DNA from: Frigoribacterium sp. Leaf8
GTDB lineage: Bacteria > Actinomycetota > Actinomycetes > Actinomycetales > Microbacteriaceae
Assembly (NCBI RefSeq): GCF_001421165.1
Contig: NZ_LMKB01000001.1
Location: forward strand, 450-49,129
Direction of reading: 5' to 3'
Length of the DNA: 48,680 nt
Below, one piece after another: positions 19,102 through 35,613 of the stretch. The notes under the pieces were generated by a model, which ran no database searches, was not told the origin of the DNA, and saw only the letters and a program-made list of their open reading frames with translations. How positions within the stretch are numbered: the stretch's first letter is position 1; each line of letters starts with the position of its first letter. A program made the position numbers and the translations under genes.

Positions 19102-20190
19102 TCAGCGGGTCAGGGCGGCGCCCTCGAAGAGGTCGCGGACGTTGCTAGTGCCGACGCCGTGCACGATCTCGGCGTCGACGCCGAGGTCGGTCAGCCGGTC
19201 GAGGAACACGGCGGGGACGTACGAGAGGCCGTTGCCGCCGTGCTTGCGCAACATGCTCTTGAGGAAGAGGTCGTGGCTGAAGAGCAGACGGCGGCCGAAC
19301 CCGGCCGAGGCCAGACGGGCGATGGCCGTGGCCGTCTCGACCGGCGACGGCGACTGCCCTTCGCCGGGCAGGGAGAAGCGGTACGGCATGCCGATCATGT
19401 CGAACTCGAGCCAGACCCCGCGCTCGGCGAGGCTGCGCTGGTAGTCGGGGTCGCTGCCGGACGGGTCCATGTGGCAGAGGACGACCGCCGTGGGGTCGAC
19501 GCCCTCGTCGCGCAGCACGACGTCGAGCACGCGGCCGCCGTGCCGGACGAAGCCGGGCAGGTGCACGAACATCGGCAGGCCGGTCTCGCGTTGCAGGCGG
19601 CAGGCCGCGCGCAGCGAACGCTCCTCCCGCTCGGTGAAGCCGGGCGAGACGCCGATCTCGCCGATCACGCCCGACCGGGGCACCCCGGTCTCGGCCGGGT
19701 CGGCCCGGTACTGCGCGACCAGGCGGGAGGCCAGGTCGTCGACGGTGTCGCGGCCCGTGGCCTCGGGGTGGAACCGCTCGAGGTACCAGCCGCCGCCGGT
19801 GACGACGGTGACCCCGCTGCGGCGCGAGATCTCGGCGAGACGTCGGGGGTCGCGCCCCTGTCCGTCCGAGGTCAGCTCGACGACCGTGCTGCCGCCGAGC
19901 TCGCGGAACGCCACGAGCTCGTCGACCGCGTCGTCGTCGCCGTCGAGCACGCAGTTGTCGCGGCAGGCGAGCGGACGGTCGCGCAGCAACCAGGCGATCT
20001 CGGGAGTGACCGGGGCGTCGAACAGCTCGGGGAAGTCGGGGTCGGGTTCGAGCCCGCCCTCCTCGATGCTGTTGATCAGGTGCTCGTGCGGCAGCGTGTA
20101 GCCGAGTCGGTCGCTCGGCACCGGACCGGTGACCGTCTGCACGTCGACGACGGTGGTCGTCTCGACGCCGAACCCTCCGACGCGGCTCAT
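19102..20190 (-). CDS. Phosphotriesterase-family metallohydrolase
   Basis: 362 residues forming an amidohydrolase-type TIM barrel. Metal ligands are visible: His35 and His37 (LPHEHL), a bridging Glu178 (VIGEIGV) where true phosphotriesterase has a carbamylated Lys, His210, His240 (CHMD) and Asp306 (FSHD). The Glu bridge is also found in E. coli phosphotriesterase homology protein. Enzymes of this group are often lactonases, acting for instance on sugar lactones, rather than phosphotriesterases. Its ATG overlaps the permease stop by 4 nt, which couples it to solute uptake. Confidence 0.88.
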   Translation of the reverse strand: MSRVGGFGVETTTVVDVQTVTGPVPSDRLGYTLPHEHLINSIEEGGLEPDPDFPELFDAPVTPEIAWLLRDRPLACRDNCVLDGDDDAVDELVAFRELGGSTVVELTSDGQGRDPRRLAEISRRSGVTVVTGGGWYLERFHPEATGRDTVDDLASRLVAQYRADPAETGVPRSGVIGEIGVSPGFTEREERSLRAACRLQRETGLPMFVHLPGFVRHGGRVLDVVLRDEGVDPTAVVLCHMDPSGSDPDYQRSLAERGVWLEFDMIGMPYRFSLPGEGQSPSPVETATAIARLASAGFGRRLLFSHDLFLKSMLRKHGGNGLSYVPAVFLDRLTDLGVDAEIVHGVGTSNVRDLFEGAALTR

Positions 20191-21242
20191 CGGGTCACCC
20201 GCTTGCGCACCAGGTCGGTGAACGAGCCGCCCCGCAGGTTGATCCAGATGACGATGATCAGGAGGCTGCCGGTCACGATGGGCACGATGTAGGGGCTCAG
20301 GCCGAGCAGCGTGAGGCCGTTGGTGATGACGCCGGTCAGGATCGCCCCGATCGCCGTGCCGATGACGCTGCCCTTGCCGCCGAGCAGGTTCGTGCCGCCG
20401 ATGACGACGGCGGTGATCACCGTCATGGCGAAGTCGACGCCCGAGTTGGCGTCGCCCGACCCCAGTCGGGCCGCGGTGATGATGCCGGCCGCGCCGGCCG
20501 CCGTGCCGCTGAGCACGAGGGCCATCATCTTGACGAAGCGGGTGTCGACGCCCGCCCGGCGGACCGACTCCTCGTTCGAGCCGATGCCGGTGATGTACTG
20601 GCCGAACCGCATGCGCTGCAGCCCCACGATGCCGACGCCGACGATGATCAGCGCGAGCCAGGCCGGGTACCCGAGCCCGAACAGCCGGCCCTGCCCGACC
20701 TGGGCGAAGATCAGCCCCGAGCCGATGGCGATCGAGTAGCCCTTCGTGATCAGCAGGGCGACGCCCCGCACGATCGACATGGTGGCCAACGTGACGATGA
20801 ACGACGGGATGCCCTGGTAACTCGAGAACCAGCCGTTGACCAACCCGCAGAAGGCTCCGACGGCCAGGCAGATGACGATCACCAGCACCGACTCGAGACC
20901 GGCCCGCAGCAGGACCGCCCCGATCACCGAGACGAGGGCGAGCGTCGACCCGACCGAGAGGTCGATCATGCCCGCCGTGATGACGAAGGTCATCGCGACG
21001 GCCACGATCGCCGCGGGGGCGACCTGCACGGCGACGTTCCGCAGGTTCGTGCCGGTGAGGAAGGTCGGGGTCGCCACCGAGAAGACGACGATGACGACCA
21101 GCGTCACGACGAGCATCAACAGGGTGGACTTGTTGACGCGTTGCAGGGCTTCCCAGCGGCGCTCGCGCACGTCGGTGGAGCCGTGTCCGCGACCCGGCTC
21201 GGGGCCGTCGGTGCGGGTGGGGTCAGAGGTCGTCGCGGTCAT
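20187..21242 (-). CDS. Ribose-type ABC transporter permease
   Basis: 351 residues with 8-10 hydrophobic segments of the RbsC/FrcC type. Family hallmarks include VAMTFVITAGMIDLSVGS, GIPSFIVTLATMSIVRG, the GIGSNEESVRRAG coupling loop and VVIGGTNLLGGKGS. It forms the membrane channel together with the ATPase and lipoprotein encoded upstream. ATG 21242 overlaps the ATPase stop by 4 nt. Solutes of this family are usually pentoses, hexoses or other small polyols; the sequence does not tell which. Confidence 0.92.
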   Translation of the reverse strand: MTATTSDPTRTDGPEPGRGHGSTDVRERRWEALQRVNKSTLLMLVVTLVVIVVFSVATPTFLTGTNLRNVAVQVAPAAIVAVAMTFVITAGMIDLSVGSTLALVSVIGAVLLRAGLESVLVIVICLAVGAFCGLVNGWFSSYQGIPSFIVTLATMSIVRGVALLITKGYSIAIGSGLIFAQVGQGRLFGLGYPAWLALIIVGVGIVGLQRMRFGQYITGIGSNEESVRRAGVDTRFVKMMALVLSGTAAGAAGIITAARLGSGDANSGVDFAMTVITAVVIGGTNLLGGKGSVIGTAIGAILTGVITNGLTLLGLSPYIVPIVTGSLLIIVIWINLRGGSFTDLVRKRVTR

Positions 21243-21994
21243 GCGGCAGCGCTCCCTTCACGGGTGATCATGTCGACGAGCGACTCGATGGTGAGGTCGT
21301 CGATGCGGGCGTCGTCGACGCTGCGCCCCTCGTACATGACGGTGATGCGGTCGCAGACCCGGAAGAGGTCCTGCAGCCGGTGGGTGATCAGGATGACGCC
21401 GACCCCTCGGGCCGCGACCTCCTTGATGAGGCGCAGCACCGACTCGACCTCGGTGACGGCGAGGGCGGCGGTCGGCTCGTCGAGGATCAGCACGTCGGGG
21501 TCGACCGACGCGGCGCGCGCGATGGCGACGGACTGGCGCTGACCACCCGACAGCTGCGAGATCAGCTGGTGCGTGGACGTGACGCGGACGCCGAACTCCT
21601 TGAGCACGGCCGTGGCCTCGGCGTGCATCGCCCCGACCTTGAGGAAGGGCCCGACCCGAGGCTCGCGGCCGAGGAACAGGTTGGCGGCGACGTTGAGGCT
21701 GTCGCAGAGGGCCAGGTCCTGGTAGACGATGCCGATGTCCTCGGCCTGGGCGTCGCTCGGGGACTGGAACCGCACCTCCTTGCCCTTGATGCTGATGCGG
21801 CCGCCGTCGTGCTGGACCGAACCGGCGAGCACCTTCATGAGGGTGGACTTGCCGGCGCCGTTGTCGCCGACCAGGCCGAGCACCTCGCCGCGCGCGAGGC
21901 GCAGGTCGACGCCGCGCAGGACGTCGACGGCGCCGTACGACTTGCGGATGCCCTCGAGTTCGACGAGCAGGTCGCCGGTGGTGACGTCGGTCAT
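21239..21994 (-). CDS. ABC transporter ATP-binding protein (single-domain, FrcA-like)
   Basis: 251 residues with one ABC domain: Walker A GDNGAGKST, signature LSGGQRQSVAIARA, Walker B VLILDEPTAAL and switch His in ITHRLQD. Most ribose-type systems use a fused two-domain ATPase of about 500 residues; this one is the short form seen in FrcA-like transporters, so a homodimer is expected. ATG 21994 shares one base with the TGA of the binding-protein gene. A much longer reading frame upstream is an artefact of the overlap. Confidence 0.92.
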   Translation of the reverse strand: MTDVTTGDLLVELEGIRKSYGAVDVLRGVDLRLARGEVLGLVGDNGAGKSTLMKVLAGSVQHDGGRISIKGKEVRFQSPSDAQAEDIGIVYQDLALCDSLNVAANLFLGREPRVGPFLKVGAMHAEATAVLKEFGVRVTSTHQLISQLSGGQRQSVAIARAASVDPDVLILDEPTAALAVTEVESVLRLIKEVAARGVGVILITHRLQDLFRVCDRITVMYEGRSVDDARIDDLTIESLVDMITREGSAAA

Positions 21995-23025
21995 CAGCCC
22001 TCCAGGTAGTACGAGAAGTCGGCCAGGTTGTCGGGCGTGACGATCGTGATCGGCACGTCGACGGTCGCCGGCACGTCGGCGGTGCCGCAGGCCAGGTTGA
22101 TCGCGGCCTTCGCGGCCTCGTAGCCGAAGCCGAAGGTGTCCTGCTGGATGACGGCCTTCACGTAGCCGTCCTGCAGACCCTCGACGGCCGAGGGCGAGAG
22201 GTCCCAGCCGACGATCGTGACGCGGTCCTGGGCGCCCTGGCTCTTGACCGCGGCGATGGCACCGTTGAGCGCGGGCTCGCCCGTGGCGTAGATGTACTCG
22301 AGGTCGGGGTTGCCGGTCAACAGGTTCTCGGCCGCCGCCTGGGCGTCCTCGTTGACGTTCTGGCCGTCGACGATCGTGCCGATGGTCATGCCGCCGGCCT
22401 CGACCGCGTCGGTGAAGCCGTTCTGGCGCTGGATCTGGATCGCGCTGTTGAGCGCTCCGACGACGCCGACCTCGCCCTCGCCGCCGGTGATGTCGAGGAA
22501 GGCCTTCCCGAGCTGGGCGCCGCCGTCCTCGTTCGCCGTGCCCACGTACGAGTCGATCGCCGAGGCGTCCTCGACCGAACCGTCGGCCGCGACGACCGGG
22601 ATGCCGGCCGCCTTGGCCGCCGTGAGCGCCGGGATCAGCGCGGTCGCGTCGACCGGGTCGACGATGAGCGCGTCGACCCCCGAGGCGACGAGGTTCTCGA
22701 CGCCCGAGACCTGCGTGGCGCTGTCGTTGTCGCCGCTGACGATCTGCAGGTCGGCACCGGCCTCGTCGGCGACGTCCTGGACGCCCTCGTTCATCTGGGT
22801 GAAGAAGGCGGTCTGCTCGTTGATGTCGACCATGCCGAGCTGCAGGGTGCCGCCGCCCTCGGGGGCACAGGCCTGGGGGACGTCGGTGGGGGCCGGGCGG
22901 GTCGAGGTCGAGCCGCCGGACGCGGAGCCGGAGGCGGTGGTCGAGGACGAGTCGCAGCCGGCGAGGGTGCCGATGGCGATGGCGCCCACGGCGAATGCGG
23001 CGAGGACGGTACGGGTCGTGGGCAT
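21994..23025 (-). CDS. Ribose-type ABC transporter substrate-binding lipoprotein
   Basis: 343 residues. The N-terminus has a signal peptide and lipobox TLAGC (Cys at about 24), then a Ser/Thr-rich tether. The mature part is a periplasmic-binding-protein type I fold (LGMVDINEQTAFFTQMNEGV, ALIVDPVDATALIPAL, a late TIVGWDLSPSAVEGL). It is the first gene of the eight-gene operon, directly downstream of an operator and promoter region shared with a LacI-family gene. The ligand is unknown. Confidence 0.92.
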   Translation of the reverse strand: MPTTRTVLAAFAVGAIAIGTLAGCDSSSTTASGSASGGSTSTRPAPTDVPQACAPEGGGTLQLGMVDINEQTAFFTQMNEGVQDVADEAGADLQIVSGDNDSATQVSGVENLVASGVDALIVDPVDATALIPALTAAKAAGIPVVAADGSVEDASAIDSYVGTANEDGGAQLGKAFLDITGGEGEVGVVGALNSAIQIQRQNGFTDAVEAGGMTIGTIVDGQNVNEDAQAAAENLLTGNPDLEYIYATGEPALNGAIAAVKSQGAQDRVTIVGWDLSPSAVEGLQDGYVKAVIQQDTFGFGYEAAKAAINLACGTADVPATVDVPITIVTPDNLADFSYYLEG

Positions 23026-23103
23026 GAGGAGCCTTCCTGGGGAGGACGAGGTGGAGCATGCGGGACTGGCGAGGGGGCGATCTCGGTGGGGTCGAGATCG
23101 ACG

Positions 23104-23117
23104 GGCAATCGATTTCC
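23104..23117. promoter_or_regulatory. LacI-family operator, proximal to the transporter operon
   Basis: GGCAATCGATTTCC is a near-palindrome centred on CG, the form expected for a LacI-family operator. It lies 79 bp upstream of the lipoprotein start and downstream of a candidate -35 element. A sister site is at 23203. Confidence 0.7.
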
Positions 23118-23134
23118 GTCGGGAACTGCGTCAA

Positions 23135-23163
23135 GAGTGACGCCTCCGTGTTTCGAGTGTCAA
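23135..23163 (-). promoter_or_regulatory. Candidate promoter of the transporter operon
   Basis: Reading the minus strand, TTGACA (23163-23158) is a good -35 hexamer in an AT-richer patch. The -10 region 17-18 nt further (TCACTC/CACTCT) is poor. The operator at 23104 would lie just downstream of the start site, suited to repression. Confidence 0.35.
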
Positions 23164-23202
23164 CACCTTTGTGTTTCCGACGTGTAAAAGTGATCTCGAG
23201 CG

Positions 23203-23216
23203 GGCAATCGGTTTCC
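23203..23216. promoter_or_regulatory. LacI-family operator, proximal to the regulator gene
   Basis: GGCAATCGGTTTCC differs by one base from the site at 23104, and the two centres are 99 bp apart. It lies 64 bp upstream of the LacI start, so autoregulation and looping are plausible. Confidence 0.7.
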
Positions 23217-23280
23217 CGCGAGGGGACGATACGATGACGGCATCACCCGTCGTCCCCGGCGGCCACGCCCTGAGGAGCCC

Positions 23281-24306
23281 ATGAACGCCGTCACCATCTC
23301 GGACGTCGCCCGCCGGGCGGGCGTCTCCGCCGCGACGGTCTCGCGCGTCATGTCGGCGTCGCGCCCGGTCGGCCGCGAGGTCGAGGCCCGCGTGCGGCTG
23401 GCGGCCGACGAGCTGGGCTACTCGGGCAACGGCATCGCCCGCGCCCTGCGCACCCGCCGCACCGACACGGTCGGCATGGTCGTCCCGAGCATCCTCAACC
23501 CGTTCTTCACGACCCTGGTCGACAGCCTCGAGAGCGCGCTGCACGGCGAGGGCAAACAGCTGTTCCTCTGCGACTCGCGGCAGGACCCCGCCGTCGAGGC
23601 CGAGCACCTCCGGTCGCTCATCGAGCGGCACGTCGACGGCATCGTGGTCAGCCCCGTGCACGACACCGAGAGCGCGGCGGCCGTCGCCGCGTCCGCCCGG
23701 GCCGTCCCGCTGGTGCAGCTCGACCGCCGGGTCGACGTCGCCGGCACCGACTGGATCGGCCTCGACGACGCCGAGGCGATGAAGCTCGTCCTGACGCACC
23801 TCGCCGGGACCGGTGCCCGCTCGGCCGCGTTCGTGACCTCCGAGCTGACGAACTCGTCGACGACCCTGCGCCTCCGGGGCTTCCGGCACTGGGCGGCCGA
23901 ACTCGGCATCCGCGAGGTGCGCGACGGGGTCGTGCTCGGCGACTACTCGGTCGACAGCGGCGACGCGGCGGCCCGCCGACTGCTGACCTCCGACGACCGC
24001 CCGGACGCCATCGTCTGCGCGGACGACCTGATCGCCATGGGCGTGCTGAGGGCGGCCCGCGAACTCGGGGTGTCGGTGCCCGACGAGCTGCAGGTCACGG
24101 GCTTCGACGACATCGTCTTCGCCTCGTACGTGACCCCGGCCCTGACGACCCTGGCGCAGCCGACCGACCGCATGGCCGCCGAGGCGCTGCGACTGCTCTC
24201 GCTGCGGGGCTCCGACGACGGAGGACTCGGAGGCGCGCGCGTGTCGTTCGCGCCGAGGCTCGTCCGCCGGCAGAGCACGCGGTCGTCGACTCCCGAGCCC
24301 GCCTGA
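23281..24306 (+). CDS. LacI-family transcriptional regulator of the solute-degradation operon
   Basis: 341 residues. An N-terminal helix-turn-helix (TISDVARRAGVSAATVSRVM, 5-24) with a hinge helix ending near residue 57 is followed by the ligand-binding core (GMVVPSILNPFFTTLVDSLE, DGIVVSPVHD, TGFDDIVFASYVTPALTTL). A GAGGAG site precedes the ATG. It is divergent from the operon and separated from it by 255 bp holding two near-identical palindromic sites, which makes it the probable repressor. The inducer is presumably the imported solute or a derivative. Confidence 0.93.
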   Translation: MNAVTISDVARRAGVSAATVSRVMSASRPVGREVEARVRLAADELGYSGNGIARALRTRRTDTVGMVVPSILNPFFTTLVDSLESALHGEGKQLFLCDSRQDPAVEAEHLRSLIERHVDGIVVSPVHDTESAAAVAASARAVPLVQLDRRVDVAGTDWIGLDDAEAMKLVLTHLAGTGARSAAFVTSELTNSSTTLRLRGFRHWAAELGIREVRDGVVLGDYSVDSGDAAARRLLTSDDRPDAIVCADDLIAMGVLRAARELGVSVPDELQVTGFDDIVFASYVTPALTTLAQPTDRMAAEALRLLSLRGSDDGGLGGARVSFAPRLVRRQSTRSSTPEPA

Positions 24307-24330: not shown

Positions 24331-25443
24331 TCAGTGCTCGACGGCCCACCGCCCGCCGACGCGGCCGAACTGCTCGACGGCCCGCAGGACCGCCTCGACC
24401 GACACGGACTCGTCCACCGTGTGGACGACGGTGGGGTCGCCCGGGCCCCAGACCACGACGGGCACCCCGTCCTCGAGCGACCGCACGAGCACCGAGGCGT
24501 CCGTGAAGTACGACGCGGGCGCCTCCGAGACCGGGGCGTCGAGCCCGGCGAGCCAGGGATGGTCGCGCGGGGTCCACACCGCGGCCAGGTCGAGGTCGAC
24601 GCGGACGTCGGTCACCTCGGGCTGGCCACGCCACCAGTCGACGAGTTCGTCGACGTCCTCCCGGACGACGCGCAGGTCGATGCGCGCCTCGCAGACGTCG
24701 GGCACGATGTTCGGCACGCTGCCGCCCGACACGACGCCGACGTTGACCGTCTCGCGCCCGAGGTCGGCATGGGACGAGAGGGGCAGGTCGTCCAGGCGCC
24801 CGAGCACGGCCACGAGGTCGAGGATCGCGTTGTGGCCCCGCTCGGGCGTGCTGCCGTGCGCGGCGACGCCCGAGGTGCGGACGGTCGCCCAGAGCGCGCC
24901 GCGGTGACCGAGCACGACCTGCCCGTCGGTCGACTCGGGGATCACCACGGCCCCCACGCGCAGGCCCGCGAGCAGGTCGACGACGGCAGGAGCCCCGAGG
25001 CAGCCGACCTCCTCACCGGTCGAGACGGCGAGCGCGACGGGTGCACCCTGGCGCAGGAGGTCCCGTACGGCGACGATCGAGGCGGCCAGGCCGGACTTCA
25101 TGTCCGAGGCACCCCGCCCGTACAGGCGGTCGCCGACGGCGGTCGAGGCGAAGGGATCGTGGGTCCAGGCCGAGGCGTCGGTCACCGGGACGACGTCGGC
25201 GTGGGACGCGAAGACGAGCAGCGGCCTGTCGGCGCCGACGGACGTCGGCGAGACCAGGAGGGCCGCGGGCTCGCCGTCGGCCCCGGGGGCGAAGGCGACC
25301 CGCGCCTCCTCGACGCCCTCGAACTCCGCGGCGACGCGGCGCAGGACGGCCGCCTCGCCCGGTGAGCCGCTGGTCGAGTCGATCGCGACGAGGTCGCGGA
25401 GCAGGGCGATCACGGGCGGTGCGGACGGCGTCGGGGCGGTCAT
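24331..25443 (-). CDS. M20 family peptidase/deacylase
   Basis: 370 residues. Di-zinc site residues are visible: His81 and Asp83 (SHADVVP), Asp114 (GRGASDMKSG), catalytic Glu144 with Glu145 (STGEEVGCLG) and a C-terminal His in VVHTVDES. The dimerisation domain has the usual AAHGSTPERGHNA. The family includes ArgE, DapE and carboxypeptidases that split N-acyl amino acids or short peptides. It starts 15 bp after the M1 peptidase stop and is the last gene of the PPTase/NRPS operon, so it may act on oligomers or modified monomers of that product. Confidence 0.88.
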   Translation of the reverse strand: MTAPTPSAPPVIALLRDLVAIDSTSGSPGEAAVLRRVAAEFEGVEEARVAFAPGADGEPAALLVSPTSVGADRPLLVFASHADVVPVTDASAWTHDPFASTAVGDRLYGRGASDMKSGLAASIVAVRDLLRQGAPVALAVSTGEEVGCLGAPAVVDLLAGLRVGAVVIPESTDGQVVLGHRGALWATVRTSGVAAHGSTPERGHNAILDLVAVLGRLDDLPLSSHADLGRETVNVGVVSGGSVPNIVPDVCEARIDLRVVREDVDELVDWWRGQPEVTDVRVDLDLAAVWTPRDHPWLAGLDAPVSEAPASYFTDASVLVRSLEDGVPVVVWGPGDPTVVHTVDESVSVEAVLRAVEQFGRVGGRWAVEH

Positions 25444-25458
25444 GCCGTCACGTTATCG

Positions 25459-26763
25459 TCACGGCGACGGCGGCAGGGCCCGCTCGTCGAGCCAGGGACG
25501 CAGCAGCGGTCCGACGGGGTGGCCGGAGACGCGGGTGGCGAGGGCGACGAAGTCGGCCGTGGTCGCCACGCCGTGTCGGTGCTCGGCGGTCCAGGCGCGC
25601 AGCACGTCGAAGAACGCGACGTCGCCGACCGCCGAGCGCAGCGCGTGCACCGCGAGCGCCCCGCGCTTGTAGACGCGATCGTCGAACATGAGGTCGGGGC
25701 CGGGGTCGCCGACGAGCAGGTCGCGGGGCAGACCGGCCAGCCGCGCGCGGGTCTGGGCGGCGATGCGCGCGGCCGACGGACCGCCCGAGGCCTCGGACCA
25801 GATCCACTCGGCGTAGCAGGCGAAGCCCTCGTTCAGCCAGATGTCGCTCCAGGTCGTCAGGCCCACGCTGTTGCCGAACCACTGGTGCGCCAGTTCGTGC
25901 GCGATCAGCCGACGAGACCCGCCCGCCCCGTCGGCGTGGTTCGCCCCGAAGATCGCGAGGCCCTGGGCCTCGAGCGGGATCTCGAGGTCGTCGTCGGTGA
26001 CGACCACCGAGTACGACGCGAAGGGGTACGGACCGAACCGCTCGACGAAGCAGGCCATCATGTCGGCCACCTCGCCGAAGTCACGACCGATGCGGGACCG
26101 CATCGCGGGCACCCCGGCGAAGACGCCGGGCACCCCCGCGAGCACGACCGGCACCAACTCGTAGCGACCGATCTGCACCGTCGCGAGGTACGTCGCCGTG
26201 GGCTCGGGCTGCTCGTAGACCCAGGTCGTGCGGCCGGACCGCGTGTGCCGGTCGGTCAGCTCACCGTGGGCGACGACGGCGTAGGGCTGCTCGGTCGTGA
26301 CCTGCACCCGGTAGGTCGCCTTGTCCGCCGGTTCGTCGTTGCACGGGAACCAGGTCGCCGCCCCGTTCGGCTGCGAGGCGACGAGTGCACCGTCGGTCAG
26401 CTCCTCCCAGCCGAGGGTGCCCCAGCGGGTGCGGCGAGGTGCGGGCGAGCCCGCGTACTCGACGACCACCTCGACCGGCTCACCCGGCACGGTCTCCTCG
26501 GGCAGCGTCACCGTCAGCTTCGTCGCCGACTGCGCGTGACGCGCCTTGCGCCCGTCCACCCGCACCTTCGCGGCACGGAGGCGGAGCAGGTCGAACACGA
26601 GCGTGCGGAGGGCCTCGGTCGGCACGACCGTCAGCGTCGCCACGCCGTCCAGTCGGTTCGTCGCCACGCGGTACCCGACCACGAGGTCGTACGAGCGCAC
26701 GCCGTACCCGGTGTTTCCGCTCTCGGGCGTGTAGCCGTTCGGGGTCGCCGCCGGACCGGTCAC
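25459..26763 (-). CDS. M1 family zinc metallopeptidase
   Basis: 434 residues. HELAHQW places zinc ligands His289 and His293 with catalytic Glu290, and NEGFACYAE supplies Glu312. The GAMEN-like exopeptidase motif appears modified as EAQGLA (265-270). The protein is short for M1 and lacks the C-terminal helical domain. Epsilon-poly-lysine-degrading enzymes of streptomycetes are M1-family peptidases encoded near the poly-lysine synthetase. The GTG start here overlaps the NRPS stop by 4 nt, so a role in trimming or detoxifying the NRPS product is a reasonable inference. No signal peptide is evident. Confidence 0.87.
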   Translation of the reverse strand: MTGPAATPNGYTPESGNTGYGVRSYDLVVGYRVATNRLDGVATLTVVPTEALRTLVFDLLRLRAAKVRVDGRKARHAQSATKLTVTLPEETVPGEPVEVVVEYAGSPAPRRTRWGTLGWEELTDGALVASQPNGAATWFPCNDEPADKATYRVQVTTEQPYAVVAHGELTDRHTRSGRTTWVYEQPEPTATYLATVQIGRYELVPVVLAGVPGVFAGVPAMRSRIGRDFGEVADMMACFVERFGPYPFASYSVVVTDDDLEIPLEAQGLAIFGANHADGAGGSRRLIAHELAHQWFGNSVGLTTWSDIWLNEGFACYAEWIWSEASGGPSAARIAAQTRARLAGLPRDLLVGDPGPDLMFDDRVYKRGALAVHALRSAVGDVAFFDVLRAWTAEHRHGVATTADFVALATRVSGHPVGPLLRPWLDERALPPSP

Positions 26764-29700
26764 TGCGAGACGGCGTGGTAGTCCGCGAACGTGACGTCCC
26801 GCCACGGGCCGATGGGGTTGCCGCTCCACCGGCTGCCGACGGGGACGACCTCGCCGCGCATGACGAGCGACGCGGGTCCGACCGTGGCGTGTTCGCCCAG
26901 GCGGGCCGCGGGCAGCACGACGCTGTGGGGTCCGAGGGTCGAGCCGGCGGCCAGGGTGACGGTGTCCATGCTCATGATTCGATCATGGAACAGGTGGGTC
27001 TGCACGACGCATCCTCGATTCACCGTCGACGCGTCGTCGAGTCGCACCAGGTCGGCCTCGGGCAACCAGTAGCTGTCGGTCCACACGCCGCGACCGATCG
27101 ACGCCCCGAGCGAGCGCAGCCACCACACGAGGGCCGGGGTGCCGGCCGCCGCGTGGGCGAACCAGGGGGCCGCGCACATCTCGGTGAAGGTGTCGGACAC
27201 CTCGCTGCGCCAGACGAACGACGACCAGAGCGGGTGCTCGCCGGCCCGGATGCGCCCGACGAGCGCCCACTTGGCGAGCGTCGTGACCCCGGCGGCCGCC
27301 GCCCCGACGGCGAGCATCACGACGCCGCCGACCGCGGCCGTCGCGCCGACCCCGATCGCGTCGACCAGCGCCCACAGTCCGACGACCAGGCCGAGGCCAA
27401 TGCCGCAGGTGACGACGACGGGCACGATCCGGCTGAGCTCCCACGCGATGCGGGCCACCCGGAGGTGCGTGGCCGGGCGGAAGGTGCGGGTCTCGTCGGC
27501 GACGGCGACCGTGCGGCGCAGGCGCACCGCGGGTGAACCGAGCCACGACGACCCCGCCTTGGACTTGCGCGGAGCCGACGAGAGCACGGCCACCAGACCG
27601 TCCTTCGGCACCTTGTGGCCCGGGGCGGTCATGCCCGAGTTGCCCAGGAACGCCCGCCGACCGATCTCGGCCCGGGCCACGCGCAGCCAGCCGCCGCCGA
27701 GCTCGTACGACGCCACGAGCGTGTCGTCCGCCAGGAAGGCTCCGTCGCGGACGGTCGTCATCGACGGCAGCAGCAGGACGGTCGACGCCTCGACGTCCCG
27801 CCCGATCTCGGCCCCGAGCAGGCGCAGCCAGACCGGCGTGAACAGGCTCGAGTAGAGCGGGAACAACAGGGTGCGCGACAGGTCGAGCAGGCGTTCGGTG
27901 CTCCAGACCTGCCAACCGACCCTCGACCGCACCGCGAAGGTGCCCTCGGTCACCCCGAGGGCCCACAGCCGGGTGAGCGCGACGACCAGCACGGCGGCCA
28001 CCAGCCCGGCCACGAGCGTGCCCGGCACCAGGAGGGCGAGGGCCCGCCACCACGCGTCCGTCAGCGAACCCGCACCCCGCACGCCGAGCGCGACGACCGC
28101 GCCTCCTGCACTCAGCGACGCCACCGGCAGCAACGCGACGACGACGGCCGACGCCCCGTAGGCGACGAACCACCGGGTGGGTGCCGGGGGTCGGTCCTCC
28201 GGCCACCAGGCGCGGGTGCGGCCGATGCGCTCGGCCGGCGACCCGGCCCAGTGCTGACCCGACGGCACCCGTCCGAAGACCGCGGACCCGGGCGCGATCG
28301 AGGCGTCCTTGCCGATCCGGGTGCCGGGCAGCAGGGTGCTCCGCATGCCGATCGTGCTGCCCGCACCGATGCGGATCGCCCCGATGCGGACGACGTCGCC
28401 GTCGATCCAGTGCCCGGCCAGGTCGACCTCGGGCTCGACCGACGCCCCGCGACCGATGCGCAGCATGCCGGTCACGGGCGGCAGGGCGTGCAGATCGACG
28501 TCGGGTGCGATGCGAGCCCCCAGGGCCCGCGCGTAGTAGCTGATCCACGGGGCGCCGGCGAGCCCGACCGCCCCGATCTGGTGCGCGACCTGCTCGGCCA
28601 GCCAGAGCCTCAGGTGCACGCTGCCGCCGCGCGGATGATCGCCCGCCTCGACCCCCCGGAGGAGGAGGCGCGAGGCCAGCACCGAGATCGCCATGCGTCC
28701 CGGCGGGGTCGCGAACACGAGGATCGCGACGACGAGCAGCCCGCCGTCGACCGCCGGCAGGGCGTCGAACCCGCTCCACCAGCGCAGCACGGTGCTCGCG
28801 GTCAGGGCGTAGGTCAGCCAGCGCGCACCCGACAGCACGAGGAGGGGCACCCCGAGCAGGGTCTGCAGCCATTGGGTGCGGCGCGGGGTCGGCACCGACC
28901 GGTGGAACACGGCCGGCGGGGCCTCGTCGTCGACGTCCGCCACCGTCAGCGCCTCGGCCAGCGCGCCGAGCCGGGGGTGCGAGTAGATCTCGGCGACGGT
29001 GAACTCGGGGTCGAGCTCGCGCAGCCGGGCCACGAGCTGGGCGGCGGCCAGCGATCCCCCGCCGAGGTCGAAGAAGTTCGCGTCGGCGTCCGGGACGGGT
29101 ACGCCGAGGACCTCGCGCCAGCGGTCGGCGACGAGCTGCTCGACCGGGGTCATCGAACCGGCACCGTCGGGCCGGCCACCTCTCCCGTCGCCACCGGTCG
29201 ACGAGTCGACCAACGGCCAGGGCAGCGCGTCGCGGTCGATCTTGCCCGACGTCTTCGTCGGCAGGTCGCCGGTGACCAGCGCCAGCAGCGGCACCAGCGC
29301 GGCCGGCAGTCCGTCCCGGAGGCGGGCGAGGGCGGCGCCTCGGTCGAAGGTCTCGGCGGACGCGACCGCGAGGTAGCCGACGAGCACCTGGTTGCCGGCC
29401 GCCGTCGTCCGCACCGCCGCGGCGGCGCCGCCGACCCCGGGCAGGGCCTGCAGCGCGGTCTCGATCTCCCCGAGCTCGATCCGGCGCCCGCCGACCTTGA
29501 CCTGGTCGTCGGCCCGCCCCTGGAACACGAGTCCGGCCCGGTCGAACCGCACGAGGTCACCGCTGCGATAGGCGCGCTGCCAGCCGAGCTGCGCGTGCGG
29601 GGCGTACTTCTCCGCGTCCTTGGCGGGGTCGAGGTAGCGGGCCAGGCCGACGCCGCCGATGATCAGCTCGCCCACCTCGCCTTCCGCGACCGGGTCGCCC

Positions 29701-30752
29701 TCGGCGTCGACGACGGCCACGTCCCACCCGTCGAGCGGCAGACCGATCCTCACCGTCTCTCCGGCACGCACCAGCGCCCCGGTGGCCACCACGGTCGACT
29801 CGGTCGGCCCGTAGGTGTTCCACACCTCACGGTCGTCGCCGACGACGCGGTCGACGATCTCGGGCGGGAGCGCTTCTCCGCCGAAGATCAGCAACCGGAC
29901 GCTCTCGAGGGCCTCGTCCGGCCAGAGGGCCGCGAGGGTCGGCACGGTCGAGACGACGGTGATGCCGTGGGTGACGAGCCACGGCCCGAGATCGGCACCC
30001 GACCGGACGAGGCTGCGAGGGGCCGGCACCAGGCAGGCGCCACTGCGCCAGGCCAGCCACATCTCCTCGCACGAGGCGTCGAACGCGACCGACAGTCCGG
30101 CCAGCACCCGGTCGCCCGGTCCGAGCGGATCGAGCCCGGGCGACGACAGGAACATCCTCGCCTCGGCGTCGGCCAGGGCGGCCGCCGAGCGATGACTCGC
30201 GGCGACGCCCTTCGGCGTGCCGGTCGAGCCCGAGGTGAAGATCACCCAGGCGTCGTCGTCCGGGGTCGGCGACCGGTCGTCGTCGGCGAGCGCCGTGCCC
30301 CGCCCGCTGACGTGCCCGGCCGGTGCGGCGAGCACGAGGCTGTCGGGTCGGTCGGCGTCACGCGGGGTGAAGCGTCCCCCCGCCGAGACGATGCCCACGA
30401 CGCCGGCCTCGCCGAAGACCAGGGCGGCCCGCTCGTCGGGGTCGTCGGCGTCGACCGGCACGTAGGCGGCCCCGGCGGCCAGGACGGCGAGGATCGTCAG
30501 GTAGAGCGACGAGTCGCCCGAGGGCATGCGCACGCCCACCCGGTCGCCGCGACGCACCCCGGCGTCGGCGAGCGCGCGCGAAGCGGCTCCGACGCGGACG
30601 ACGAGTTCCGCGTAGCTCCACGCACCCCGCTCGTCCTCGAGGGCCGAGGCGTCCGGGTGCTCGAGCGCCGTGGCCCGCAGGACGTCGACGAGCGTCCGGG
30701 GTGCGGGGGCCGCGGGCGAACCGGCGATCACGCCGGGCAGTGTCTGGCTCAC
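26760..30752 (-). CDS. Pls/PosA-family NRPS (poly-amino-acid synthetase-like)
   Basis: 1330 residues. An adenylation domain (about 17-515) has FTSGSTGTPKGV (172-183), NTYGPTE (312-318), YRSGDL (395-400) and catalytic Lys504 in TSGKIDRDAL. A thiolation domain (535-602) carries phosphopantetheine Ser567 in FFDLGGGS. The rest, some 700 residues, has about six membrane helices alternating with hexapeptide-repeat-like soluble parts (for example GRGASVEPEVDLAGHW). This is the architecture of epsilon-poly-lysine synthetase Pls, which lacks condensation and thioesterase domains. By GrsA alignment the pocket reads D-A-E-S-I-G-T-V-V-K, close to lysine codes. GTG 30752 overlaps the PPTase stop by 4 nt. 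Confidence 0.93.
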   Translation of the reverse strand: MSQTLPGVIAGSPAAPAPRTLVDVLRATALEHPDASALEDERGAWSYAELVVRVGAASRALADAGVRRGDRVGVRMPSGDSSLYLTILAVLAAGAAYVPVDADDPDERAALVFGEAGVVGIVSAGGRFTPRDADRPDSLVLAAPAGHVSGRGTALADDDRSPTPDDDAWVIFTSGSTGTPKGVAASHRSAAALADAEARMFLSSPGLDPLGPGDRVLAGLSVAFDASCEEMWLAWRSGACLVPAPRSLVRSGADLGPWLVTHGITVVSTVPTLAALWPDEALESVRLLIFGGEALPPEIVDRVVGDDREVWNTYGPTESTVVATGALVRAGETVRIGLPLDGWDVAVVDAEGDPVAEGEVGELIIGGVGLARYLDPAKDAEKYAPHAQLGWQRAYRSGDLVRFDRAGLVFQGRADDQVKVGGRRIELGEIETALQALPGVGGAAAAVRTTAAGNQVLVGYLAVASAETFDRGAALARLRDGLPAALVPLLALVTGDLPTKTSGKIDRDALPWPLVDSSTGGDGRGGRPDGAGSMTPVEQLVADRWREVLGVPVPDADANFFDLGGGSLAAAQLVARLRELDPEFTVAEIYSHPRLGALAEALTVADVDDEAPPAVFHRSVPTPRRTQWLQTLLGVPLLVLSGARWLTYALTASTVLRWWSGFDALPAVDGGLLVVAILVFATPPGRMAISVLASRLLLRGVEAGDHPRGGSVHLRLWLAEQVAHQIGAVGLAGAPWISYYARALGARIAPDVDLHALPPVTGMLRIGRGASVEPEVDLAGHWIDGDVVRIGAIRIGAGSTIGMRSTLLPGTRIGKDASIAPGSAVFGRVPSGQHWAGSPAERIGRTRAWWPEDRPPAPTRWFVAYGASAVVVALLPVASLSAGGAVVALGVRGAGSLTDAWWRALALLVPGTLVAGLVAAVLVVALTRLWALGVTEGTFAVRSRVGWQVWSTERLLDLSRTLLFPLYSSLFTPVWLRLLGAEIGRDVEASTVLLLPSMTTVRDGAFLADDTLVASYELGGGWLRVARAEIGRRAFLGNSGMTAPGHKVPKDGLVAVLSSAPRKSKAGSSWLGSPAVRLRRTVAVADETRTFRPATHLRVARIAWELSRIVPVVVTCGIGLGLVVGLWALVDAIGVGATAAVGGVVMLAVGAAAAGVTTLAKWALVGRIRAGEHPLWSSFVWRSEVSDTFTEMCAAPWFAHAAAGTPALVWWLRSLGASIGRGVWTDSYWLPEADLVRLDDASTVNRGCVVQTHLFHDRIMSMDTVTLAAGSTLGPHSVVLPAARLGEHATVGPASLVMRGEVVPVGSRWSGNPIGPWRDVTFADYHAVSQ

Positions 30753-31426
30753 GGCCGCACGGTAGGGACCCCAGGTGTCACGTCGGTGAACTCGACCGCG
30801 TCCAGGGCCGGACCGGCGACGGCGAGGAGGACCCCGGTCGCCGAGCGCCGGTCGTGGACCAGTCCGCGTCGACCGTCCGTGGTCGTGCCCCCGGGCCCGG
30901 GCCCCAGACGGAGCGTCGACATCGCGGTGGTCAGCCCCTCCCCCGTCGACTTGAGCAGCGCCTCCTTCCGCACCCAGGCGCGCAGCACGTCCACGTCGAC
31001 GTCCTCGGGGCTCACGTCGGGCCGGAGGTGATCGAGCGCACCGGCCGGACGGGCCCCTTCGACGTCGACGCCGACGGGCGCCCCGGCCCGCACCGCCACG
31101 GCAGCCCAGCGACCGCTCCGGCTGAGGCTCACGTGCAGGTCGTCCGACGGCACCGGCACCGGCCGACCGTGCGGACCACCGCACGAGCGACAGGCCTCGC
31201 GTCCGAACTCGATCGACCCGGCCTCCCGGCCGGTCACGGACGAGAGCAGGAGGCGCAGCGCACGATGCGAGGCCAGGTACCGACGCGCGTCGGTCGCGTC
31301 CACGAAGGCCGCCGCGCGGGCCCGTTCGTGCGCGTCGCAGACCTCGCTCGCCGGAGGCGCGCCGGCGTCGCGTTCTCGGCCGAGGTCGAGGTCGAGGTCG
31401 ACCAGCCACACCCGCGCGCCCGTCAC
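30749..31426 (-). CDS. Sfp-type 4'-phosphopantetheinyl transferase
   Basis: 225 residues. GVDVE (119-123) and WVRKEALLKSTGEG (from 151, with Lys154, Glu155, Lys159) are the magnesium and coenzyme A-binding motifs of Sfp-type enzymes. The LASHRALRLLLSSVTG segment is the usual upstream motif. It transfers phosphopantetheine to Ser of a carrier domain, here most likely Ser567 of the NRPS translated from the overlapping next gene. The GTG at 31426 was chosen because the family N-terminus (VWLVDLDLD) follows directly; a longer frame to 31549 looks noncoding. Confidence 0.9.
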   Translation of the reverse strand: MTGARVWLVDLDLDLGRERDAGAPPASEVCDAHERARAAAFVDATDARRYLASHRALRLLLSSVTGREAGSIEFGREACRSCGGPHGRPVPVPSDDLHVSLSRSGRWAAVAVRAGAPVGVDVEGARPAGALDHLRPDVSPEDVDVDVLRAWVRKEALLKSTGEGLTTAMSTLRLGPGPGGTTTDGRRGLVHDRRSATGVLLAVAGPALDAVEFTDVTPGVPTVRP

Positions 31427-31577
31427 GGCAGGCGAGCCTAGCCGCGTCCGCACCCGCGCCGCGGGTCCGTTCACCTGCCGTTCTCCGGGTGGGGTGATGA
31501 TCCGGTCGGCGTCCGTCACCCTCCCGACCGGTCCGGGACGCCCCTCCACCCGTTTCCCTCACCCGAGAGGCCCCCGC

Positions 31578-31847
31578 ATGGCCAAGAAGATCCCCACCGC
31601 ACTCGCCGAACTCGTCGAGGCCCTCGAGCACCACGCCGAGGTCGTCACGGCGAAGTCGTCGTCGTCCAAAAGGCTCGGTCGCGCCACTGCGAAGGTGCGC
31701 CGCGCCTCGGCCGCCTACACCGAGGTGGTGGCCGCCCGCACGGGGCAGCCGAACCCGTTCGTGGACTTCCTCGATCCCGAGACGATCGAGTCGCTCCGTG
31801 CCGAGCGGGACCGCATCGCGAGCGGCAAGACGACGCCGGTCGACTGA
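31578..31847 (+). CDS. Small basic hypothetical protein
   Basis: 89 residues, mostly helical by composition, with a Lys/Ser/Ala-rich middle (TAKSSSSKRLGRATAKVRRA) and a C-terminal NPFVDFLDPETIESLRAERD stretch. I recognise no family. GAGAGG lies 9 nt before the ATG. The gene precedes another Lys/Ala-rich protein by 70 bp, and the two may be co-expressed. Nucleic acid binding is conceivable from charge only. Confidence 0.7.
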   Translation: MAKKIPTALAELVEALEHHAEVVTAKSSSSKRLGRATAKVRRASAAYTEVVAARTGQPNPFVDFLDPETIESLRAERDRIASGKTTPVD

Positions 31848-31917
31848 CAGCCGTCCCAGGTGGGCGTGCCACGCTCACAGGCACGATTTCCGCACGTTCG
31901 AGAGAGGGGCCGATCCC

Positions 31918-33295: not shown

Positions 33296-33868
33296 TCAGC
33301 GGTAGTGCTGTTCGCCGCGGGCGGCCGCCGCGACCACGTCGCGGATGCGGGCCGCCCGGGTCTCGGGCCGCTTCAGCGCGGCCAGCCGGAAGTACACCCG
33401 GAACCGCTCGGTCTTCGTCATCGTCGCGAAGTGCGCCGCCGCCACCGGGTCGGCGTCGAGGGCTCCCTGCAGGTCGTCAGGAGGCACGGCGTCCTTCTGG
33501 CGGTAGGCGGCGTCCCAGCGGCCGTCGGCCTTCGCCCGGTCGACCTCGGCCTGACCCGCGGGGGTCATCCGACCCTCGGCGGTCAGGCGTGCGACGTGTT
33601 CGCGGTTCACCTGGGACCAGGGGCTGTCCTTGCGCCTCGGTTGGAACGCCGTGAGCGTGAAGTCGTCGTCGAGTCGGCTGGTCTGGCCGTCGATCCAGCC
33701 GTGGCAGAGGGCGACGTCGAGGGCCTCCGACCAGGTCATGCCGGGCTTCGTCGACCGCACCTTGCGGAGCGTCAGTCGCACCCCACCCGCGTCGGGGTCG
33801 CCCTCGAGGTACTCGCGCCACTGCTCGACCGTCACGTCGAGCACGGGCTTGTCGGCGAAGCTGACCAT
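33296..33868 (-). CDS. YdeI/OmdA family protein
   Basis: 190 residues. The order ALCHGWIDGQ, LTAFQPRRKDSPWSQVN, LTAEGRMTPAG, and WDAAY is the signature of the YdeI/OmpD-associated (bacteriocin-protection) family. The C-terminal third has the DALDADP-like and FRVYFRLAALKRPETRAARI helices. The molecular function is unclear; enterobacterial OmdA is linked to polymyxin and bacteriocin tolerance, but that does not transfer safely to an actinobacterium. The ATG at 33868 begins the family N-terminus. Confidence 0.85.
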   Translation of the reverse strand: MVSFADKPVLDVTVEQWREYLEGDPDAGGVRLTLRKVRSTKPGMTWSEALDVALCHGWIDGQTSRLDDDFTLTAFQPRRKDSPWSQVNREHVARLTAEGRMTPAGQAEVDRAKADGRWDAAYRQKDAVPPDDLQGALDADPVAAAHFATMTKTERFRVYFRLAALKRPETRAARIRDVVAAAARGEQHYR

Positions 33869-33960: not shown

Positions 33961-34593
33961 TCAGAGCCCGAACAGCAGCCGCAGCCCGAGGGCGACCATC
34001 ACGACGGCGATCACCGCGTCGAGCACCCGCCACGCGACCGGCTTCGCGAACAGGGGACGCAGGAGGCGCGCGCCGAACCCCAGCGCCGAGAACCACACGA
34101 GACTGCCCGTGACGGCCCCGCCCGCGAACCACCACCGCAGCTCGGGCGGCTGGTGGTTCGCCACCGAGCCGAGGAACACGATCGTGTCGAGGTAGGTGTG
34201 CGGGTTCAGCCAGGTGAAGGCGAGGGCGCCCAGGACGGCCGGGACGACCCGGGCGGGCGGCGCTCCGGCCTCGACCGTGAGCGCGCCGACGGGCCGGATC
34301 GCGCGCTTCGCGGCGAAGGCGCCGTAGACCAGCAGGAACCCTGCCCCGACGATCTGCACGACGACGACCGCCTGCGGCGCGGCCTCGACGAGCGCGCCGA
34401 CCCCGGCCACCCCGGCACTGATCAGCACGGCGTCGCTCACCGCGCAGACCACGACGACCGGCACGACGACGCGGGTCACGGCCTGGAGCCCGACGCGCAG
34501 CACGTAGGCGTTCTGGGCACCGATGGCGACGATCAGGGCGAGGCTCGTGCCGAAACCGAAGAGGGCGGCGGGCAGCACGGTCGCGAAGGTCAT
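33961..34593 (-). CDS. lysE: LysE/ArgO-type basic amino acid exporter
   Basis: 210 residues with five to six transmembrane helices. The start GFGTSLALIVAIGAQNAYVLR, the VSDAVLISAGVAGVGAL segment and LGALAFTWLNPHTYLDTIVF are signatures of the LysE/ArgO branch, which exports lysine and arginine using the proton gradient. The adjacent, divergent LysR-type regulator is the typical partner. The cluster lies about 2.5 kb upstream of a lysine-coded NRPS operon, so export could balance lysine pools, but that link is inferred. Confidence 0.9.
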   Translation of the reverse strand: MTFATVLPAALFGFGTSLALIVAIGAQNAYVLRVGLQAVTRVVVPVVVVCAVSDAVLISAGVAGVGALVEAAPQAVVVVQIVGAGFLLVYGAFAAKRAIRPVGALTVEAGAPPARVVPAVLGALAFTWLNPHTYLDTIVFLGSVANHQPPELRWWFAGGAVTGSLVWFSALGFGARLLRPLFAKPVAWRVLDAVIAVVMVALGLRLLFGL

Positions 34594-34662: not shown

Positions 34663-35613
34663 ATGGCCCGTTTCGCGCTCGACCAGCTCGACACCCTCCG
34701 CACCGTCGTCGACGAAGGCACGTTCGAGGCGGCGGCGAGACGCCTGCACGTCACGCAGTCCGCGGTGTCGCAGCGCATCAAGCAGCTCGAACGAGCGGCC
34801 GGGCAGGTGCTGCTGCGACGCACGACACCGGTCACCACGACCGAGGCCGGTGACGTGGTGCTGCGTCACGCCCGCCAGGTCGACCTGCTCACGTCGGACG
34901 CGCTGGCCCGGCTCGGCGCCGGCCGACCCGACGGAGGGGACGACGGTGACGACCCCGTCCCCACCACCCTCCCCATCGCCGTCAACGCCGACTCGACGGC
35001 GACCTGGTTCCTCGACGCGCTGGCCGCCGTCCCGCCCACGGTGCCCGTGGTGTTCGACCTGCGCCGGGCCGACCAACAGCACACGGCCGAGCTGTTGCGA
35101 TCGGGGGACGTGCTCGCCGCCGTCACCGCGACCCGGGAGCCCGTGCAGGGCTGCAGCTCGGAGCCGCTCGGCGTCATGCGCTACCGCGCGGTCGCCAGTC
35201 CGGGGTTCGTCGAACGGTGGCTGGGCGCCCGACCGAGCGCAGGGGGAACCGCCGAGCGCAGGGGCCTCCACCACGGACGGCTCGATCGTGCCCCGATGGT
35301 GGTCTTCGACCGCGCCGACGACCTGCAGCACGACTTCGCGCGTCGGCTCACCGGTCACGAGCCGCTCGCGCCCCGGCACCACGTGCCCGCCTCGGCCGAC
35401 TTCGCCCGGGCCGTCGTGCTCGGCCTCGGCTGGGGCATGCTGCCCGAGGCGCAGGCCGGCCCCGAACTCGACGCCGGCCGTCTGGTCGAACTGGCCGCCG
35501 GCGACCCGGTCGACGTGCCGCTCTTCTGGCAGCGCTGGACCCTCGCCTCGCCCCTCCTCGAGGCCGTCACCGACGCCGTCCGCGCCACCGCCCGCCACGC
35601 CCTGCATCCCTGA
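34663..35613 (+). CDS. lysG: LysR-type regulator, LysG/ArgP group
   Basis: 316 residues. The N-terminal winged helix-turn-helix (LDTLRTVVDEGTFEAAARRL, VTQSAVSQRIKQLE) and two-lobed effector domain are of the LysG/ArgP (IciA) type. In that group the regulator senses lysine or arginine and activates the divergent exporter. The ATG 69 bp from the exporter start is well placed. It ends before a strong double hairpin and faces the isocitrate dehydrogenase gene. Confidence 0.9.
   Translation: MARFALDQLDTLRTVVDEGTFEAAARRLHVTQSAVSQRIKQLERAAGQVLLRRTTPVTTTEAGDVVLRHARQVDLLTSDALARLGAGRPDGGDDGDDPVPTTLPIAVNADSTATWFLDALAAVPPTVPVVFDLRRADQQHTAELLRSGDVLAAVTATREPVQGCSSEPLGVMRYRAVASPGFVERWLGARPSAGGTAERRGLHHGRLDRAPMVVFDRADDLQHDFARRLTGHEPLAPRHHVPASADFARAVVLGLGWGMLPEAQAGPELDAGRLVELAAGDPVDVPLFWQRWTLASPLLEAVTDAVRATARHALHP

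Follow-up and report, generated by a model that had tools for sequence, protein, structure and literature searches.

A stretch of 48,680 nucleotides from Frigoribacterium sp. Leaf8 (the window, meaning the whole stretch analysed) carries four minus-strand genes, for a 4'-phosphopantetheinyl transferase (PPTase), a non-ribosomal peptide synthetase (NRPS; pls), an M1 peptidase and an M20 peptidase. Do these genes make a cationic poly-amino acid, and which of them take part? A preliminary description had proposed a four-gene poly-lysine system. In this study, we found that the segment from 25459 to ~31900 is best read as a compact epsilon-poly-L-lysine biosynthesis unit with the M20 gene as a bystander, a reading to which we give a probability of about 0.84. 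The Pls-type synthetase, lysine as the likely monomer, the M1 peptidase and the PPTase were kept from the earlier proposal, and the M20 gene was dropped. This reading is built on observations of gene content, gene coupling, the identity of the pocket, the clade, the fold model and three-gene co-inheritance. All four open reading frames (ORFs) were intact, with stops solely at their ends. Coordinates and frames were checked, and the gene arrangement described earlier was correct: GTGA overlaps of 4 nt join PPTase to NRPS and NRPS to M1, and the M20 gene starts 15 bp past the M1 stop on the same strand.

The synthetase was examined by profile searches. Pfam matches were AMP-binding, PP-binding and Hexapep, and no condensation or thioesterase domain was found in the Pfam scan (E 0.001). 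The NCBIfam model TIGR02353 ("Pls/PosA family") spanned residues 629-1314 (model positions 2-695) with 694 bits, above its curated cut-off of 423, and TIGR01733 matched with 337 bits. The architecture read at the outset, adenylation (A) and thiolation (T) domains followed by a terminal domain, was therefore confirmed by the Pfam scan and by the TIGR02353 search that had been proposed as a check. The best solved relative was 7WEW, the A domain of an epsilon-poly-L-lysine synthase (604 bits); the PosA A domain, 8G95, scored 189 bits. The window A domain was 65.6% identical to 7WEW over 471 columns. Its ten-residue pocket, at positions that we take to follow GrsA numbering, reads DAESIGTVVK, with Ala second, as first described, and the aligned pocket of 7WEW is identical. 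The spacing of these positions is consistent with the PosA residue numbers given in PMC10522769.

We then compared the pocket across related loci. The survey comprised 82 loci from the family, the best 80 loci of a named-locus scan (some on the same contigs as family loci, so that the sets overlap) and 60 class loci from outside the family; 30 further matches over the TIGR02353 cut-off were left out. Of the 83 family proteins, counting that of the window, 78 had DAESIGTVVK, as did all of the best 80 named loci; the other family pockets were DAESVGTVVK (2) and DFECLSVVTK (3). In a quick maximum-likelihood analysis of 45 A domains, with the three DFECLSVVTK proteins as the root, 7WEW fell among the lysine-pocket proteins (SH-aLRT 92), and only one protein, L243 (DAESIGTVVK), branched deeper. 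Phylogeny and specificity check agreed in assigning the window A domain to the lysine type. It is highly improbable that the synthetase polymerises another diamino acid, namely ornithine, 2,4-diaminobutyrate (Dab) or beta-lysine. Related synthetases do take such monomers (PMC10522769); however, the rule stated in that report is that a second pocket residue of Ala indicates lysine, Met ornithine (PosA) and Phe 2,3-diaminopropionate (Dap) or Dab. Since the window has Ala and neither Met nor Phe, ornithine and Dab/Dap specificity were rejected. The pocket of a beta-lysine synthetase, DGESISVVNK (PMC10522769), also differs from the one shared with 7WEW. Because of the 694-bit TIGR02353 match, the 66% identity to 7WEW and the same pocket, the window NRPS is, by sequence, very probably an epsilon-poly-L-lysine synthetase (Pls).

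The terminal domain was examined by a crude hydropathy scan and by modelling. Six hydrophobic segments were detected in this domain; they form three pairs, in two of which the members' extents overlap. One further segment lay at 82-102, in the A domain. An AlphaFold2 model built on an alignment of 54 sequences, from the window and the surveyed loci, had a pLDDT of 90 and a pTM of 0.90 and consisted of three repeats of helices plus a beta-helix. Both the hydropathy scan and the model agree with the six predicted transmembrane helices, in three pairs separating C1-C3, that mark a Pls. The best Foldseek matches of the model were mostly hexapeptide acyltransferases with a low TM-score, and comparison of the terminal domain alone with solved structures gave just weak hexapeptide and gamma-carbonic-anhydrase matches. 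The predicted fold agrees with the model description in PMC10522769.

In Streptomyces albulus, pldII is translationally coupled to pls, and repression of pldII gave longer polymer and lower tolerance (PMC9223678). The M1 gene was followed across the surveyed loci. The M1 protein matched Peptidase_M1 and M1_N in Pfam and has a HELAHQ...NE zinc motif. Among the 82 family loci, 79 had a homologue downstream of pls on the same strand, and the remaining three were those of the DFECLSVVTK proteins. The homologue was likewise present at all of the best 80 named loci, where it mostly abutted pls and was at most 2.2 kb away. Outside the family, M1 was found at 47 of 49 lysine-pocket class loci; it was found at none of the 11 class loci without an A domain and at none of the three DFECLSVVTK loci. 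Across 159 family and best named loci, pls-M1 spacing was -4 nt in 66, -1 nt in 34, another overlap in 2, 0-30 nt in 35, 31-150 nt in 15 and larger in 7. With 100 of the 159 loci spaced at -4 or -1 nt, the arrangement lies well outside what chance would give. The inclusion of M1 in the proposed system was thus upheld, and on sequence comparison M1 is a conserved partner of pls that matches the published pls-pldII pair. By analogy, it is a probable PldII-type enzyme that degrades or trims polylysine. That the two genes are so tightly paired in actinobacteria speaks for synthesis and cleavage of the polymer being a single function.

The PPTase gave an ACPS match of 22.5 bits, under the Pfam cut-off of 25. 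It bears GVDVE...WVRKEALLK, which we take to be a PPTase motif, and homologues of it occur at loci of the same type. The protein (P0004) gave one match when compared with its own genome. PF01648 matched one further gene, located elsewhere, which was read as a putative AcpS; by these searches no second PPTase of the window type was found in the genome. The profile for the neighbourhood search was built from 51 sequences, which came mainly from the surveyed loci themselves. A PPTase was near 70 of 79 lysine-type family pls genes: 65 lay on the opposite strand, at most 2.7 kb downstream, and five were upstream on the same strand. Those five belong to the window's genus and to Frondihabitans; three overlap pls and two lie at 60-140 nt. 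Within the genus, pls, M1 and PPTase occurred in exactly the same 8 of 16 genomes, which supports the PPTase as part of a unit with pls and M1, as had been suggested. By analogy, it probably activates the synthetase. Further A-domain matches were observed elsewhere in the genome (G000:C6:258011-263593), suggesting a second NRPS region, which might need the operon's PPTase.

The M20 gene behaved differently. Orthologues (at least 73% identity) were found in 7 of 16 genus genomes, 5 of them in common with pls, which is no significant association (Fisher p 0.31). The orthologue occurred without pls in G541 and G537, was unlinked to pls in G536 and was absent from three pls genomes. In G541 (locus L264), M20 is present with no match to pls, M1 or PPTase, and the DNA joins window position 25458 to 31909 with ~110 bases between. 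The segment from 25459 to ~31900 is therefore found or missing as a whole, and M20 is part of the flank. A neighbourhood survey for a conserved PPTase/M1/M20 set had been proposed as a check; no match to the window M20 protein (P0003) adjoined pls in any of the 82 family or best 80 named loci, and the sole weak match among family loci (31%, L063) lay 9.9 kb from pls. M20 might still be a second dedicated hydrolase that finishes the breakdown of lysine oligomers released by M1, given its start 15 bp after the M1 stop and its abutting the unit in 4 of 8 pls-bearing genus genomes (G000, the window's own, and its closest relatives G539, G538 and G542). In 10 of the 60 class loci, a different M20 is also encoded upstream of pls, on the other strand. 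However, the one tested of these (L200) belongs to another subfamily, scoring 740 bits with PRK07906 against 77.5 for P0003, and this arrangement was rejected as support. With the absence of neighbouring matches, the scattered genus distribution and retention at the empty site also against it, a dedicated role for M20 is quite improbable, and it was rejected as a member of the system. These results indicate that, as far as sequence comparison goes, M20 is an independently inherited bystander of the three-gene polylysine unit.

Table 1. Features of the probable polylysine locus and its immediate neighbours in the window
Feature	Position	Strand	Basis
PPTase: Sfp-like 4'-phosphopantetheinyl transferase	30749-31426	-	overlaps pls by 4 nt; ACPS match, motif, genus co-occurrence
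pls: epsilon-poly-L-lysine synthetase-type NRPS, 1330 aa (very probable)	26760-30752	-	A ~14-515, T ~540-602, terminal domain 629-1314
M1 metallopeptidase, probable PldII-type polylysine-degrading/trimming enzyme	25459-26763	-	4-nt pls overlap; Peptidase_M1, M1_N, zinc motif
M20 ArgE/DapE-like hydrolase (P0003), judged a neighbour outside the system	24331-25443	-	independent inheritance; kept at empty site
89-aa basic ORF, divergent from PPTase	31578-31847	+	homologues at pls-bearing loci; within segment missing at empty site

From characterised relatives, we propose here the use of lysine, the isopeptide linkage, the export of the polymer, the activity of M1 and the partner of the PPTase. The PPTase would add a phosphopantetheine arm to the synthetase's carrier domain, and the A domain would adenylate L-lysine and load it onto this arm. 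The membrane-embedded terminal domain, with three predicted hexapeptide-acyltransferase-like lobes and six membrane helices, would repeatedly form a bond between a lysine carboxyl group and the side-chain amine of a second lysine, and the product would exit the cell. The co-translated M1 peptidase may cut this product and, as has been reported of S. albulus PldII, thereby shield the producer and control polymer length.

Several observations weigh against this proposal. Two loci, L230 and L243, carry the DAESIGTVVK pocket with no M1 match. A PPTase was near pls in just 39 of the best 80 named and 10 of the 60 class loci, compared with 70 of 79 in the family, so this link is not general. No N-terminal hydrophobic (export) segment was found in the M1 protein, in which one internal stretch (202-221) was over the crude threshold, whereas PldII is described as located outside the membrane (PMC9223678). 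Corynebacterium variabile pls yielded no product in culture of its own host and worked in Streptomyces coelicolor (PMC8117764), so the window locus may likewise be silent. If so, no polymer would be made in the window organism under ordinary conditions, and the C. variabile case, in which a confirmed gene yielded nothing at home, is the precedent. Against this, every frame is intact, and the synthetase is 96-99% identical, with an open reading frame, in three close relatives, which suggests that selection maintains it. We consider silence unlikely and retain the polylysine unit as the preferred reading.

The locus was compared with known systems. With the Pls-PldII operon of S. albulus and C. 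variabile it shares the domain order and a peptidase gene coupled to pls (PMC8117764, PMC9223678), as well as the lysine pocket, identical to that of 7WEW. It differs in that the PPTase gene heads the operon with a 4-nt overlap, and in that the M1 protein is without an N-terminal export segment by the simple scan. The published Microbacteriaceae Pls clusters resemble it in family, synthetase and conserved cluster architecture (PMC12067966). The words "peptidase" and "phosphopantetheinyl" are absent from the main text of that paper, and the position of the PPTase differs in the window's lineage. PosA, the delta-poly-L-ornithine synthetase of Acinetobacter baumannii, has the same A-T-terminal architecture and predicted terminal fold. 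However, its pocket is DMEHNGTVSK and its locus is single-gene (PMC10522769), and the window synthetase scored far lower with the PosA structure than with 7WEW (189 vs 604 bits).

Over the TIGR02353 cut-off were 80 of 199 family genomes, 87 of 345 class genomes and 1 of 14 control genomes, Corynebacterium glutamicum only. The best 80 named loci came from Frondihabitans (77%), Microbacterium, Leifsonia, Agromyces, Curtobacterium, Arthrobacter, Rhodococcus, Nocardia, Mycobacterium, Tsukamurella and others, the closest named relative among the matches listed being Frondihabitans sp. Leaf304 (77%). Pls homologues have been reported in Microbacterium among coryneforms (PMC8117764), and Pls clusters of conserved architecture in Agrococcus phoenicis, Microbacterium canaveralium, M. 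jepli and a Leifsonia (PMC12067966). Genome papers on Herbiconiux and Subtercola mention NAPAA (non-alpha poly-amino acids) and Microbacteriaceae. The initial statement that the family is not noted for this product therefore does not hold. In the open-access literature searched, we found no polylysine report for Frigoribacterium or Frondihabitans. Neither lysine nor polylysine (poly-L-lysine) is mentioned in PMC7438953. We also found no printed description there of a PPTase-pls-M1 unit, most subscription journals lying outside the scope of the search.

The system is mostly ordinary: both the synthetase type and such gene sets have been described before in this group of bacteria, and the underlying concept, already published, is unchanged. 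The modest new point is the PPTase-pls-M1 unit, present or absent together. A further Microbacteriaceae lineage is added to those that might produce a commercial food preservative, and eight genus members with the genes, eight without and one empty site offer a natural contrast for testing the role of polylysine in its producer. It is conceivable, though rather unlikely, that PPTase-pls-M1 (perhaps with the 89-aa ORF) is a self-sufficient cassette that passes as a whole between loci and species. Bringing its own carrier activator, it would give genomes without another Sfp-type PPTase polylysine production at a single stroke. In the clade of the window, this cassette would have landed upstream of M20 and be starting to recruit it as a second hydrolase. 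Homologues of the 89-aa ORF were found at pls-bearing loci L087, L098, L119, L053 and L063, with no match in the empty-site locus L264.

Other synthetases were seen during the survey. Eleven TIGR02353 proteins without an A domain (~820-1050 aa, 714-886 bits; L197, L211, L213-L216, L218, L219, L221, L229, L241) all came from one other family (f25, genomes ~6-11 Mb). In the three scanned, L197, L211 and L215, 145-311 residues preceded the TIGR02353 domain. These proteins are possibly part of a two-component synthetase whose A domain is on a protein of its own. The divergent synthetases L111, L114 and L115 (29-30% identity) have DFECLSVVTK, with Phe at position two, and no M1 neighbour. Genomes G134, G071 and G187 carry them plus a lysine-type synthetase elsewhere, and two different cationic polymers may be made in each.

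Several observations concern M20 and the flanks. P0003 was under the TIGR01910 cut-off (179 vs 218 bits). A LacI gene is convergent with M20, and the two stay together in the 7 genus loci holding an M20 orthologue. Window positions 19102-24306 encode a Phosphotriesterase-family hydrolase, an ABC importer and the LacI regulator. The class loci with an upstream, opposite-strand M20 peptidase (L198, L200, L202-L206, L208, L210, L212; 31-33% to P0003, 0.2-4.5 kb from pls) are all from f25. On the other flank, ~2.5 kb from the operon, lie a gene for a LysE-type translocator (33961-34593, minus strand) and a divergent LysR regulator gene (34663-35613, plus strand). An OmdA/YdeI domain protein, whose Pfam name is "Bacteriocin-protection", is encoded near the polymer operon at 33296-33868 on the minus strand.

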